Source: a virus
IMG/VR virus record: IMGVR_UViG_3300046328_000382
Span: 1-42,839 of that record
DNA length: 42,839 nt
Direction: 5' to 3' (one strand)
Below the pieces are notes generated by a model. That model saw nothing but the letters and a program-made list of their open reading frames with translations. It ran no database searches and was not told the DNA's origin. Position 1 is the first letter of the stretch. Every line of letters starts with the position of its first letter. This document shows positions 1-27,672 of this stretch, one piece after another. Made by a program: the position numbers and the translations under genes.

Positions 1-17
1 TACAACTTATTGTATTT

Positions 18-98
18 TTTGTAGGAAAAAAGTATGAAAAACAGCGATTTTGCAAAAAACGTAAAAAAAAAACGCACTTTTATACCCCCCCCCCTAAA
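18..98. repeat. Long direct repeat, copy 1 (upstream of terminase genes)
   Basis: An 81-bp block beginning TTTGTAGGAAAAAAGTATG and ending in a run of ten C then TAAA recurs almost unchanged at 37560-37639; the only visible difference is a C run of ten versus nine. Both copies lie about 120-140 bp upstream of the first gene of a plus-strand transcription unit, which suggests a duplicated control region. Confidence 0.95.
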
Positions 99-22041: not shown

Positions 22042-22944
22042 ATGAAAAAAAACAATGAAAGAAGGTATCGGTTTAATTACTATATCGCCAAAAAAATTGG
22101 GGTTACTATAAACAAGACTGGTCGGTATCGACTAACGCTTGAGCAAGAAAACAAATACTTTGACATTGTTCAAAATCAAGAGCAAATTAAAAGACTTTTC
22201 TTTGACATCGAAACATCTCCCAACCTTGTTTACGCTTGGAGAATTGGATATAATCTAACGATACACCCTGACAGCATTGTAGATGAACGTAAAATTATAT
22301 GTATCTCTTACAAGTGGGAGCACGAGGATAAAATCCATAGACTGACTTGGGATAAAGATATGTGTGATAAGCAAATGCTTATTGATTTTATATCGGTGGC
22401 TAACAAGGCAGATGAATTAATCGCTCACAACGGAGATCGCTTTGACATTAAATGGATAAGAACTCGTTGCATATTTCATAGGGTTTCAATGTTTCCACAA
22501 TACAAAACGTTAGATACGCTTAAAAAGGCTAAAAGTGGATTTAATTTCAATTCCAATAAACTCGATTACATCGCACAATTTTTAGGAGTTGGAGCAAAGG
22601 TAAAGCATAGTGGATTTGATATGTGGAAGGAAGTTATGAAAGGTAATCCTGATGCGCTTGAGGAAATGGGTAATTACTGCGATGGAGATATAGTTGTGTT
22701 GGAGGATGTGTTCTTAACGATGCAGAATTATATTAAACCCAACACTCACGCTGGAGTTTTAAATGGAAATCTAAAATATAGCTGTCCTTCTTGCTCAAGT
22801 GAAAATGTAGTGTTACTTAAAAACGTAGTAACCGCTATGGGAACTATCAAGAGATTAATGGAATGTCAAGATTGTGGTCAAGTTTACGAGATAAGCAATT
22901 CAGCATACAAACTCCATTTAGAAATGAAGGATAAATATAAGTAA
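22042..22944 (+). CDS. DnaQ/YprB-type 3'-5' exonuclease with zinc ribbon
   Basis: 300 residues. Residues 1-45 are the small basic domain duplicated upstream. Residues 50-235 form an RNase H-like exonuclease: RLFFDIETS (Exo I), LIAHNGDRFDIKW (Exo II) and NYCDGDIVVLED (Exo III region). The C-terminus has CPSC ... CQDC, a four-cysteine zinc ribbon (about 250-280). It probably acts on phage or host DNA or RNA. It is transcribed with the late genes and ends at the bidirectional terminator. Confidence 0.85.
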   Translation: MKKNNERRYRFNYYIAKKIGVTINKTGRYRLTLEQENKYFDIVQNQEQIKRLFFDIETSPNLVYAWRIGYNLTIHPDSIVDERKIICISYKWEHEDKIHRLTWDKDMCDKQMLIDFISVANKADELIAHNGDRFDIKWIRTRCIFHRVSMFPQYKTLDTLKKAKSGFNFNSNKLDYIAQFLGVGAKVKHSGFDMWKEVMKGNPDALEEMGNYCDGDIVVLEDVFLTMQNYIKPNTHAGVLNGNLKYSCPSCSSENVVLLKNVVTAMGTIKRLMECQDCGQVYEISNSAYKLHLEMKDKYK

Positions 22945-22953
22945 TAAAAACAG

Positions 22954-22987
22954 AAACCCCTAATAAATACATCTATTAGGGGTTTTT
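22954..22987. terminator. Bidirectional terminator between convergent transcripts
   Basis: AAACCCCTAATA (22954-22965) pairs perfectly with TATTAGGGGTTT (22974-22985), followed by T on the plus strand. On the minus strand the stem is followed by CTGTTTTT. It ends the late plus-strand unit and the minus-strand unit that contains the structured RNA. Confidence 0.93.
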
Positions 22988-22989
22988 AC

Positions 22990-23519
22990 GTTAATGTTAA
23001 AAACTGAGTCAATCCTCCTAAAAAAACATAACTTCCTACTTACTTATTTAGGCTCAGCTATCCTGTGTCATATATGGTTACCTGAAACTTCAAACGCTTG
23101 TTGATTGACCACTGCGCCCTACTCAAGTAGTTTTTATTTAGCACCCTCTCTTATACTCCTCAAGACGTATTTCTACTTACTGCCAGAAGCCAGTCATTCA
23201 TAAGAGTAGGGTCACGCAGTTATCACTTCGATTCTCCACTATAATATGGTATCTAACTACTTGCTGAGAACTCATTTGTGTTGTTAGCGTTTATATTTGC
23301 TACTCCTACATTCCTTTCTCAAGGGAACAACACATCTACCATTACTGATAGTATCTTTATGTAAATACCTCAAGCGAGTGTTTGCACCAACTCTACTTAT
23401 TTACATCAGGTTCAATGTTTAGCCTAAGTTGAGAGTTTAGTATTCATTGCAACTCACAAGTGTTCTCTAACATCAGAGACCAATCTTACAAGTTTTAAGT
23501 GGATGTAAGACCACTGTTT
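22990..23519 (-). ncRNA. Large structured non-coding RNA candidate
   Basis: About 530 nt with no plausible ORF, dense in long-range complementarity. On the minus strand, 5' to 3': an H-type pseudoknot (23511-23515 with 23498-23502; 23504-23509 with 23485-23490); hairpin 23475-23479/23464-23468; 9-bp stem 23398-23406/23359-23367; 9-bp stem 23326-23334/23277-23285 enclosing CCTT-GAGA-AAGG (a GNRA loop only on this strand); an 8+5-bp helix 23204-23220/23111-23124 enclosing 23173-23178/23125-23130; 7-bp stem 23103-23109/23008-23014. A further 7-bp helix (23053-23059/23002-23008) has a G-U pair only on the minus strand. The RNA would end at the terminator at 22954. Size, phage location and nearby tRNAs recall the ROOL and GOLLD classes, but membership is not established. 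Confidence 0.7.
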
Positions 23520-23654
23520 TTAAGTGTTTTTTACCTTTTGTAAGTGTTTTTCACGTTCCTTACACTTTTCTAACAATTCTTTAGCTTTTTGCTTTTGCTC
23601 TGATGCGTACTCCCATATTGAGAGTCTTTTCTCTATTGGTTTTCTTGTTGCCAT
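23520..23654 (-). CDS. Small charged helical protein
   Basis: 44 residues (MATRKPIEKRLSIWEYASEQ...), lysine/glutamate-rich, predicted to be one long helix. It overlaps the end of the preceding gene by 22 bp and ends one base before the pseudoknot that begins the structured RNA. Function unknown. Confidence 0.55.
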   Translation of the reverse strand: MATRKPIEKRLSIWEYASEQKQKAKELLEKCKEREKHLQKVKNT

Positions 23655-23794: not shown

Positions 23795-24277
23795 TTAATT
23801 TGTTAAGTTATTTAATTTTTCTTCATATGCTATTGAAGCATCTAATTCATTTTCAAATCTTCCTAAATTAATAGTTTTTCCATTTACTTTTATTTTAGAA
23901 ATCCATTTATTCCTATTTTTATCCCAACTAACTCCAGTGTATTTAGACGATGATTTTAAATGTTTTCGATTAACGTTCTCTCTTGTAGTAATTATTTCTA
24001 AATTTTCAACATTATTATTAGTTCTGTTAAAGTCTATGTGGTTTACAACTAATTTATAACCGCATCTTTTATGGTTTAAAAATGACTCTGCAACTAATTG
24101 ATGGACTAACCTTGATTTTGACAAACCATTTATTACTAAATTAACTTTATAATATCCATCTAAATCTTTACAAGCGTTTAATATTTTTTGTTTATTGAAT
24201 TTTAAACTTTTTACATTGCCAATATTTGAAACTTGGTAATCTCCTTCATATCCAATTACATCTTTATATATCTCCAT
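23795..24277 (-). CDS. HNH homing endonuclease (NUMOD4-HNH-AP2)
   Basis: 160 residues. Residues 1-45 are a NUMOD4 DNA-binding module (YKDVIGYEGDYQVSNIGNVK). Residues 55-105 are an HNH nuclease (VNHIDFNRTNNNVENLEIIT). Residues 110-155 are an AP2-type DNA-binding domain (YTGVSWDKNRNKWISKIKVN). This is the classic build of free-standing phage homing endonucleases. It lies next to the tRNA genes and the structured RNA, which suggests it may have brought or target this region. Start overlaps the upstream gene by 14 bp. Confidence 0.88.
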   Translation of the reverse strand: MEIYKDVIGYEGDYQVSNIGNVKSLKFNKQKILNACKDLDGYYKVNLVINGLSKSRLVHQLVAESFLNHKRCGYKLVVNHIDFNRTNNNVENLEIITTRENVNRKHLKSSSKYTGVSWDKNRNKWISKIKVNGKTINLGRFENELDASIAYEEKLNNLTN

Positions 24278-24449: not shown

Positions 24450-24466
24450 AATTTTAATTTTTTTAG

Positions 24467-24546
24467 TGATTGAGATAGGACTCGAACCTATAAGGATTTC
24501 TCCACGCAGAATCACTACGCTTGTTTACCAATTCCAACACTCAATC
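24467..24546 (-). tRNA. tRNA with long variable arm, anticodon reads GAT
   Basis: 80 nt. Acceptor stem GATTGAG/CTCAATC is perfect, with discriminator A. D arm TTG-GAATTGGTAAA-CAA resembles tRNA-Leu. The anticodon stem GCGTA/TGCGT has two G-U pairs and a 7-nt loop GTGATTC (GAT at 24511-24513). A variable arm GGAGAAATCC forms a hairpin, and the T arm is ATAGG-TTCGAGT-CCTAT. A class II body (Leu/Ser/Tyr type) with a central GAT (Ile) triplet and T at position 37 is unusual, so the isoacceptor is uncertain. No CCA is encoded. Confidence 0.75.
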
Positions 24547-24624
24547 TGTACGGAGTTTTTGTCAATCTCTCTTAGGTTCTTCCGTTATTACCACTAAGTT
24601 CATTCAAGCGCTACTTGACCTCGA

Positions 24625-24687
24625 AGCAAGGACAGGATTTGAACCTATATTTTAGTTAAACTAATGATTACCATTATCAACCTTGCT
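24625..24687 (-). tRNA. Short tRNA-like element overlapping a gene end
   Basis: 63 nt. Perfect 7-bp acceptor AGCAAGG/CCTTGCT, D-like arm GAT-AATGGTA-ATC, and T arm ATAGG-TTCAAAT-CCTGT containing the canonical box GGTTCAAATCC. The anticodon arm is reduced (TTA-GTTTAAC-TAA, central TTA) and there is almost no variable loop. Its 5' half is the last 27 bases of the VRR-NUC gene including the stop codon. It may be a degenerate tRNA, a minimal tRNA or a tRNA-like processing signal. Confidence 0.45.
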
Positions 24688-25193: not shown

Positions 25194-25222
25194 CAAATAT
25201 AATACTTTAATTTGAATTACAA
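25194..25222 (-). promoter_or_regulatory. Promoter TTG-N18-TATATTTG, leaderless start
   Basis: On the minus strand the -33 TTG is at 25222-25220 and the -7 TATATTTG at 25201-25194, spacing 18. Start codon at 25189. The -33 element lies in the 3' end of the HNH gene. Confidence 0.8.
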
Positions 25223-25740
25223 AATGTTTTGTACGTTTTATTTAATTTTATTTTTGATATTCCTGATTCGCACATATTAAATCTTATTGATAATTCTTTT
25301 AATTTTAAATTAGAGTTTCTAATAAATATAACATCTTCTAAATTTAATTTTGATTTTGAATTATTAACCCCTCTATTTTTTACTAAACCTAAATTTATTG
25401 CGTGATTGTTGTTTTCTTTTATAGTACACCATTCTAAATTAGATATATCGTTATTTAACTTATTTCCATCAATATGATTTATATAATCTTTATTCTCTAC
25501 TTTTTCAATAAAATGCAAAGCTATCAATCTATGAACTTTAAAAGTTTTTCTTTTGTTATTGATTTTTAAATCAACTACGTAATATCCAGTTTTTGAAATT
25601 TGATTTTTTAAAATCCTTTCTTTAACTAAACGTTTTGAATTTACTCCATTTTTAGTAATTCTCTCTAAACTTTTAACTCTACCATAATTAGATATTTTAA
25701 AAATTCCTTCATAACCATTAACGTCTTTCCATTCTTCCAT
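25207..25740 (-). CDS. HNH homing endonuclease (NUMOD4-HNH-HTH)
   Basis: 177 residues from MEEWKDVNGYEGIFKISNYG, the normal start of a NUMOD4 domain; an in-frame ATG six codons upstream (25758) lies within the leader hairpin and is less likely. HNH core INHIDGNKLNNDISNLEWCT (about 85-105). The C-terminus has LEDVIFIRNSNLKLKELSIR and a helix-turn-helix typical of homing endonuclease tails. It is preceded by a promoter and a structured leader (25740-25839), so its expression may be controlled by premature termination. Confidence 0.88.
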   Translation of the reverse strand: MEEWKDVNGYEGIFKISNYGRVKSLERITKNGVNSKRLVKERILKNQISKTGYYVVDLKINNKRKTFKVHRLIALHFIEKVENKDYINHIDGNKLNNDISNLEWCTIKENNNHAINLGLVKNRGVNNSKSKLNLEDVIFIRNSNLKLKELSIRFNMCESGISKIKLNKTYKTFCNSN

Positions 25741-25751
25741 ATAAGCAAAAA

Positions 25752-25821
25752 CCTGCACATCAAAAGGTCGTAGTCTTTATCAATGCAGGAATTTAATAAA
25801 ATTTTTAGTTGTAGCTACGAC
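25752..25821 (-). promoter_or_regulatory. Structured leader with interleaved stems (attenuator-like)
   Basis: In minus-strand order: GTCGTAG (25821-25815), CCTGCA (25789-25784), CTACGAC (25773-25767), TGCAGG (25757-25752), then TTTTTG. Stem 1 pairs the first and third segments (7 bp), stem 2 the second and fourth (6 bp). The interleaved order is a pseudoknot or a pair of alternative folds; stem 2 plus the T tract looks like a terminator immediately before the HNH start. Confidence 0.7.
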
Positions 25822-27072: not shown

Positions 27073-27672
27073 TTATAGTGTGGATTTGAAGTTCGCGACT
27101 ATTTTTTTCTTGCGTTTTAATTTATTACTTATCTCGTATAGCCATATTATTTTTGGTAATCCAGTTTTTATTATTGCATCTCCAACTTTAACAGCATCTC
27201 TCAATTCATAAGAATATGGTCTATCAATACTTAAACTTCTTGGATGATATATTTTATCTTTCCACTCTACAAATTTAGTCGGTGTAGTTTCTCCTATGTT
27301 TTTGAAATTAGCAGCTTTATAAATAGTTCCGCTGTGTCCTACTGTTTTATCTGAATAACTTAATACATAATTATAATCAGTATTACTTGCACACCACTTT
27401 ATAATTTGAGATAAAAACCAGCTTTCGCTGTTGCAAGGGGTGTCATCTAAACAAGCCATACGTCTAATATCTATGCAATTATTATATTTTTTTTCGTGCC
27501 TTGGTTTTCCCATTACACTACCTCCTACAAGTAATCCATCTATAAACATTCCAAAACATATACTTATTCCTCCGCCCATAGCTCCCTTTTTATAGTGGTA
27601 TTGTTCAAAAATATGTCTAATATCTGCAAACTTACAAGTTCGTATTTCGCATTTTGTTTTGTCTAATTTCAT
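27073..27672 (-). CDS. Mom-like DNA modification protein (GNAT fold)
   Basis: 199 residues. It shows the Mom-family pattern: FEQYHYKKGAMGGGISICFG, then GLLVGGSVMGKP, IRRMACLDDTPCNSESWFLS, and LSYSDKTVGHSGTIYKAANF. Mom of phage Mu modifies adenines in phage DNA and protects against restriction; related GNAT-like proteins occur in many phages. With the C5 methyltransferase at 32076 this gives the phage two candidate DNA-modification enzymes. The exact modification cannot be told from sequence. TAATG overlap with the upstream gene. Confidence 0.8.
   Translation of the reverse strand: MKLDKTKCEIRTCKFADIRHIFEQYHYKKGAMGGGISICFGMFIDGLLVGGSVMGKPRHEKKYNNCIDIRRMACLDDTPCNSESWFLSQIIKWCASNTDYNYVLSYSDKTVGHSGTIYKAANFKNIGETTPTKFVEWKDKIYHPRSLSIDRPYSYELRDAVKVGDAIIKTGLPKIIWLYEISNKLKRKKKIVANFKSTL

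Follow-up and report, generated by a model that had tools for sequence, protein, structure and literature searches.

Few large structured RNA classes are, to our knowledge, known from phages, and we know of none whose function is settled. RNA C and RNA D of phage T4 are stable small RNAs of unknown function located in the phage tRNA gene cluster; integrative elements that bring along a tRNA-gene 3′ end, in turn, restore the tRNA. Of other phage RNAs, ROOL forms an octameric nanocage, and the expression of GOLLD increases during lysis. ROOL and GOLLD are large structured phage RNAs, often located near tRNA islands and containing variable linkers (PMC12286853). The window analyzed here (the whole 42,839 nt of IMG/VR record IMGVR_UViG_3300046328_000382) is an AT-rich phage record that encodes an Sf6-like small terminase, a large terminase, a portal, an exonuclease, a helicase, a Mom-family protein and YqaJ, and contains a structured non-coding interval on the minus strand, at 22986-23514. 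The RNAs from this interval resemble ROOL and GOLLD in their occurrence in a phage, in a tRNA neighbourhood, and in their variable inner segments (PMC12286853). Conversely, instead of a single RNA of about 600 nt, as in ROOL, we found three independent elements of ~290, ~150 and ~86 nt, as opposed to ~660 nt for ROOL env-120 and >800 nt for GOLLD; they also differ in being modules that change order and exchange loop cassettes. They share with RNA C and RNA D the phage tRNA setting, but are found in other hosts and comprise several families across many phages.

Searches with Rfam 15 in gathering mode did not retrieve any family match to the interval or to the RNAs in 20 homologous loci and, besides tRNA and tmRNA, e-value mode retrieved only chance matches (interval plus 19 homologous loci). 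Within the interval itself there was no tRNA or tmRNA match in Rfam or ARAGORN, such genes being located beside it. The initial annotation had hesitated between membership in ROOL or GOLLD and a new class; the lack of matches in both Rfam modes argues against the former and supports the latter, and our best reading is that RNA-A, RNA-B and RNA-C would be new families, analogous to ROOL and GOLLD and not members of them. We found no paper on these RNAs among the open-licence literature covered.

Organization of the interval

The order on the minus strand is a small ORF, RNA-C, RNA-A, RNA-B and a terminator. The ORF (23520-23654, minus strand; 44 aa, MATRKPIEKRLSIWEY..), located directly upstream of the RNAs, has no Pfam match, was identified by tblastn in relatives and forms the left flank of the cargo site described below. 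RNA-C (23429-23514, minus strand) spans ~86 nt and comprises an H-type pseudoknot plus hairpins; RNA-A (23138-23425, minus strand) has a ~290-nt core extending from AGGCTAAACATTGAACCT to GGGTGCTAA; and RNA-B (22986-23135, minus strand; ~150 nt, AAAAACTACTTGAG..ACATTAACG) ends at the terminator. The latter (22955-22984, CCCCTAATA..TATTAGGGG) is bidirectional and is common to the array and to the convergent DNA polymerase exonuclease gene (22042-22944, plus strand; PHROG 403, Pfam RNase_H_2), which is the right flank of the cargo site. Upstream of the array, and on its same strand, are a tRNA-Ile(GAT) gene (24466-24546, minus) and a degenerate second tRNA (24624-24687, minus; 37.8 bits, with a gathering threshold of 29). 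Two NUMOD4/HNH homing endonuclease genes flank this tRNA region (23795-24277 and 25207-25758, both on the minus strand), and a Mom-family DNA modification protein (Pfam PF25680) is encoded at 27073-27672 (minus).

The initial annotation had placed at 22990-23519 a structured minus-strand RNA of ~530 nt in a coding desert, followed by a bidirectional terminator and with tRNA genes ~1 kb upstream. Its limits are almost the same as those of the recurring elements, the terminator and both minus-strand tRNA genes are present, and an ORF scan of the window revealed no ORF of ≥50 aa in 22944-23633; together with the covariation described below, this bears out the structured RNA, whereas its being a single molecule did not hold. 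Each of the three elements occurs without the other two in other phages, and the comparisons indicate that the interval is a tandem array, C-A-B, of three independent non-coding RNA genes on the minus strand. RNA-A lacks RNA-B and RNA-C in most loci; the RNA-B stretch (22986-23135) matched only L056 and L109 among the RNA-A core loci, while the RNA-B pattern was found in 41 viral contigs and CM R1 detected RNA-A in none of the 39 new RNA-B loci; and RNA-C is present in about 20 viral contigs, with or without RNA-A.

This distribution weighs against a composite ~530-nt RNA of the ROOL/GOLLD type, forming a homo-oligomeric cage, of which C, A and B would be domains. Such an RNA would fit the total length, the phage tRNA neighbourhood and the variable inner segments, comparable to the linkers of ROOL and GOLLD (PMC12286853), as well as the location of C directly before A in five loci (L085, L077, L127, L128 and L136) and of A before B in L056. 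Nevertheless, we consider it unlikely given the lack of a ROOL or GOLLD match in Rfam, the absence of A from nearly all contigs with B and from many with C, the prevalence of A on its own, and the location of RNA-B upstream of RNA-A in L109. The 7-bp closing stem TTAGGCT..AGCCTAA of the initial annotation does not survive either, for it bridges two independent elements and its AGCC is kept in RNA-B copies without an adjacent RNA-A. Independent elements sharing a transcription unit could still be part of a composite RNA in the window phage.

Structure and covariation of the three RNAs

From its 5′ end, RNA-A contains P1 (loop UAAACAUUGA), P2, a short UAAAGAUA joint, P3 with a GNRA loop, P4 around P5 and a variable P6, a near-invariant junction AAAUGAGUUCUCAGCAAG, P7, P8 and GGGUGCUAA. 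Alignment A1, with 66 sequences and 18 tested pairs, showed two-sided changes in 15 of them, with 95% of cells paired and a covariation score of 0.532, compared to 0.121 for shuffled and at most 0.131 for slid alignments. A tree-based covariation test (our own R-scape-like script) on 77 distinct sequences yielded seven significant pairs, all within P3, P4 and P5, and RNAalifold recovered P3 and P4 unaided; the support for P1, P2, P7 and P8 comes solely from inspection.

P1 (23408-23425; all coordinates of RNA-A parts are on the minus strand) is an AGG/CCT hairpin with the conserved loop TAAACATTGA, which is kept across the stem variants AGG/CCT, AGC/GCT, GTCG/CGAC and GTG/CAC. P2 (23359-23406) pairs ATGTAAATA with TATTTACAT over 9 bp around a variable inner loop, as inspected in 62 distinct full-length copies. 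P3 (23336-23351) is the GNRA-capped hairpin CTATCA-GTAA-TGGTAG, with two-sided changes in all five tested stem pairs. P4 (23277-23334), pairing TGTGTTG (23328-23334) with CAACACA (23277-23283), surrounds P5 and the variable segment P6 and shows two-sided changes in 7/7 pairs, with 98.9% of cells paired. The three outer pairs of P5 (TTCCCTTGAGAAAGGAA, 23311-23327) covary, and its loop contains a conserved TGAGAA. The following junction, J (AATGAGTTCTCAGCAAG, 23260-23276), is nearly invariant and is interrupted by HNH insertions in relatives. In 98 of 99 sequences, the UUCUCA of J is matched by a complementary UGAGAA in the P5 loop, a candidate pairing that consists of complementarity without covariation, J being almost invariant. 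P7 (23216-23261), deduced from sequence comparison and cassette exchange, pairs AGTAGTTA with TAACTGC, including one U·G pair, and P8 (23143-23212) pairs ACCCTACTCTTAT with ATAAGAGAGGGT, a helix kept elsewhere by alternative pairs such as ACCCAAACAG..CTGTGGGT; both enclose variable inner cassettes.

Two features had been used initially to choose the minus strand. The helix with a G-U pair corresponds to P7 (GTAGTTA/TAACTGC, with TAACTAC in most homologues), and other G·U pairs also favour this strand; for instance, pair 4/13 of A1 is U·G in 26 of the 66 sequences. The hairpin CCTT-GAGA-AAGG also exists, as P5, but its description as a GNRA tetraloop is unsupported because there is little variation in the inner pairs and L012 has UUUAGA as its loop; the GNRA loop that comparison does support is that of the neighbouring P3 (GUAA, GUGA, GAGA or GAAA), whose closing pair covaries.

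In RNA-C, the stem GTGG/CCAC crosses TCTTACA/TGTAAGA to form the pseudoknot, followed by hairpins TCTCT/AGAGA and TTG.GAGT/ACTC.CAA. This is the H-type pseudoknot predicted initially at the minus-strand 5′ end, and alignment A3 (15 sequences) contains two-sided changes in both of its stems, such as GUGG/CCAC to GUGC/GCAC and UCUUACA/UGUAAGA to UCCUACA/UGUAGGA. For RNA-B, alignment A2 (23 sequences) scores 0.186, compared to no more than 0.065 when slid, with two-sided changes in seven pairs. The covariation sought in homologues was thus present in the three RNAs, although for RNA-B and RNA-C it is weaker, if still clear, than for RNA-A. Covariance models matched the corresponding window elements with E-values of 1e-16 for R1 (RNA-A, at 23254-23351), 7e-25 for R2 (RNA-C) and 2e-23 for R3 (RNA-B), which are rough values given the short calibration.

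The folding energy of the interval as a single sequence gave z-scores of −1.29 for the minus and −0.54 for the plus strand; by folding energy alone the interval is barely above chance, whereas by comparison it is clearly above it. These weak z-scores are what would be expected from chance complementarity or an unrecognised coding region, which are nonetheless ruled out by the two-sided compensatory changes and by the lack of a conserved reading frame across the interval, with loop lengths free to vary among homologues.

Distribution, cargo site and exchange of segments

RNA-A was found in ~115 viral contigs, of up to 306 kb, and in a cultured phage. A blastn search retrieved a single named relative, the Crassvirales phage Cellulophaga phi14:2 (E 3e-13), where RNA-A lies beside a tmRNA; among named phages RNA-A was present only in phi14:2, and RNA-B and RNA-C in none. 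The phi14:2 genes gp007-gp009 (L001, 3866-4191), annotated as hypothetical proteins on the opposite strand, overlap RNA-A and are probably false ORFs. A conserved 18-mer matched 93 IMG/VR contigs, nearly all of them true homologues as judged from their flanks, and an independent 20-mer from another part of RNA-A matched 60 contigs, 25 of them new. Nearly all of the 20-mer contigs with enough flank carry GTTCTCAGCAAG or a near form upstream, indicating that the conservation of the junction did not arise from the choice of the first search pattern. Many of these contigs are near-duplicates, and among 73 extracted full-length cores 62 were distinct. A plasmid search gave no match, and the three exact 18-mer matches in GTDB genomes were due to chance, each lying in unrelated DNA that appears to be coding and lacks the RNA-A flanks. 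RNA-A is tandemly duplicated in L029 (4090-4538), L044 and L087, and a permuted tmRNA (RF04321) adjoins it in phage contig L033 (3502-3726).

Relatives of the window phage were found through the exonuclease gene, most of them at 94–96% amino-acid identity. Five of them (L184, L191, L194, L199 and L201) have an empty site of 61–85 nt containing only the shared terminator, while filled sites are of 158–930 nt. The site is occupied by a calcineurin-like phosphoesterase gene in eight loci (L178, L181, L185, L192, L193, L195, L200 and L205; identity tested with Pfam in one of the eight), by a 74-aa ORF in L197, by RNA-A alone in L057/L187, L188, L190 and L202, by a decayed RNA-A without its 5′ half in L196, and by RNA-A with an HNH/NUMOD4 insertion in L179. 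These comparisons indicate that the site is a cargo hotspot among near-identical relatives, and RNA-A accessory cargo, which in other phages frequently resides in tRNA/tmRNA arrays.

The inner P6, P7 and P8 segments are common to otherwise different RNA-A copies, in changing combinations: one P6 cassette combines with four types each of P7 and P8, a P7 cassette accompanies five P6 types, and for 128 of the 277 cassettes another core contains a copy. Additionally, one P8 cassette also occurs outside of RNA-A, inside another recurring element. This mosaicism, the cargo turnover between near-identical phages and the closeness to tRNA and tmRNA genes would be compatible with a decoy or inhibitor RNA that targets a nuclease or a defence of the host, such as an abortive-infection protein that cuts tRNAs or senses RNA, with loop cassettes diversifying in an arms race. 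We regard this as doubtful, because the core junction hardly varies at all, which is not typical of a surface under an arms race, and no defence partner was identified.

The conserved junction also receives insertions. An HNH/NUMOD4 ORF was identified with Pfam inside RNA-A in L099, L101/L179, L111 and L120, and a remnant in L107/L112. In L099, L101 and L107, AAATGAGTTCT(CA) is followed by a hairpin, the HNH/NUMOD4 ORF (the remnant in L107) and a second stretch whose hairpins resemble P3, P4 and P5, after which come AGTTCTCAGCAAG and the usual 3′ half; in the insertion variants L111 and L120 the interruption falls after P3. The second stretches match CM R1 weakly (36–41 bits), and we read them as part of an HNH element that would home to the conserved junction and bring a substitute for the separated 5′ half. 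Most HNH-borne variants retain UGAGA despite unrelated P5 stems. The weak R1 matches of L099, L101, L107 and L112 had been considered as tandem RNA-A copies, which we rejected since they correspond to these HNH insertions. Short double-hairpin insertions occupy the same junction in L105 and L122. The putative replacement of the half that was cut off recalls the integrative elements that restore a tRNA, but here the target is a non-tRNA RNA, the 5′ half is restored and the enzyme is an HNH homing endonuclease. Endonuclease ORFs inside some RNA-A copies could also denote a self-splicing or mobile intron-like ribozyme; this is highly unlikely, as Rfam intron models had no match in the HNH-bearing loci, nor in the window, RNA-A is bounded by a stop codon and a terminator and has no exons that could be joined, and comparison with the empty site shows a plain intergenic insertion.

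Possible roles of the array

ARAGORN identified a tRNA or tmRNA within 2 kb in 34 of 114 core loci (a tmRNA in 19 of 114), and 85 of the 86 tRNA and tmRNA genes found within 5 kb are on the strand of RNA-A. A tRNA is within 2 kb in 31 of 103 loci (30%), versus 23% of positions taken at random from those loci. The tRNA link rests on same-strandedness, partly expected from phage operons, and on tmRNA adjacency, plain proximity being modest. A Bacteroidota promoter (TTTG-17..23-TAnnTTTG) was found within 300 nt upstream of RNA-A in 7 of 87 cases, versus 2%, a mild enrichment. In the 41 contigs, RNA-B directly follows a gene or tRNA and in many cases stops just short of a tRNA gene, and a tmRNA often follows RNA-A within about 150 nt, as could be expected from a cis-acting element that serves tRNAs or mRNAs located downstream as an antiterminator or processing leader. 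Against this role, which we consider quite unlikely, a terminator alone follows in the window and after RNA-A in L057, L187, L188 and L202; likewise, RNA-C precedes its own terminators (L003, L124, L129 and L137) or other elements.

We infer, instead, that these are stable RNAs acting in trans, since the array closes its transcription unit, with only a terminator behind, the elements pass as units among phages that are not related, and the HNH element that interrupts RNA-A appears to supply a substitute for the lost half. The reading that we favour, with some reservation, is that of an array of accessory trans-acting RNAs. RNA-A would fold into a compact core with P1 to P8, the GNRA-capped P3 and the loop-to-junction pair UGAGAA × UUCUCA, and this core would bind a conserved host component during infection, the outer hairpins being exchangeable. 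As a tentative guess, its target might be a part of the translation or RNA-decay machinery, or else a defence protein.

Other recurring elements are element D, which is non-coding and located in the same arrays (..CAACGTGGGAACTGCGGCTCTCCCAATGTGGCTGGAATGTTTT; L026, L056, L145, L153, L162 and L175), element E (ACCAATGCTCGCTGTTAG..AAAGACCAAGGTTGGTAAA; L026, L030, L075, L109, L145, L147, L148, L149, L153, L156, L171, L172 and L175), element F (CTCGTATTTAAAGATAAGCAGGTTAGCTC; L010, L047, L056, L067, L155, L178, L188 and L209) and element G (GAAGTGTTATGTTTGTTGAGTA..CCCAATCTTGATGGATGTG; upstream of RNA-A in L009, L010, L017, L049, L056, L090, L111 and L130). Element E is on the strand of RNA-A or RNA-B in the compared loci, and carries an RNA-A P8 cassette at several of them.

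A bolder, still probable reading is that phages, presumably of Bacteroidota, possess RNA islands. Such islands would be interchangeable arrays of three or more, and probably at least seven, structured RNA families without relation to each other. As cargo, the families would come and go, duplicate and recombine; their hairpin cassettes would be exchanged within a family and, in one case, between families, and a single conserved RNA site would house HNH endonucleases that reconstruct the very RNA they cut. Three new phage RNA families are put forward here with convincing covariation, and the presence of RNA-A in the cultured phage phi14:2 makes it directly testable, while its presence or absence at a near-identical site provides natural knock-outs. 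The HNH insertion restoring RNA-A, as we read it, would be evolutionary evidence that the RNA is worth keeping. These results also suggest that the ‘empty’ stretches around phage tRNA arrays hold many more RNA families, missed by annotation or filled with false ORFs.
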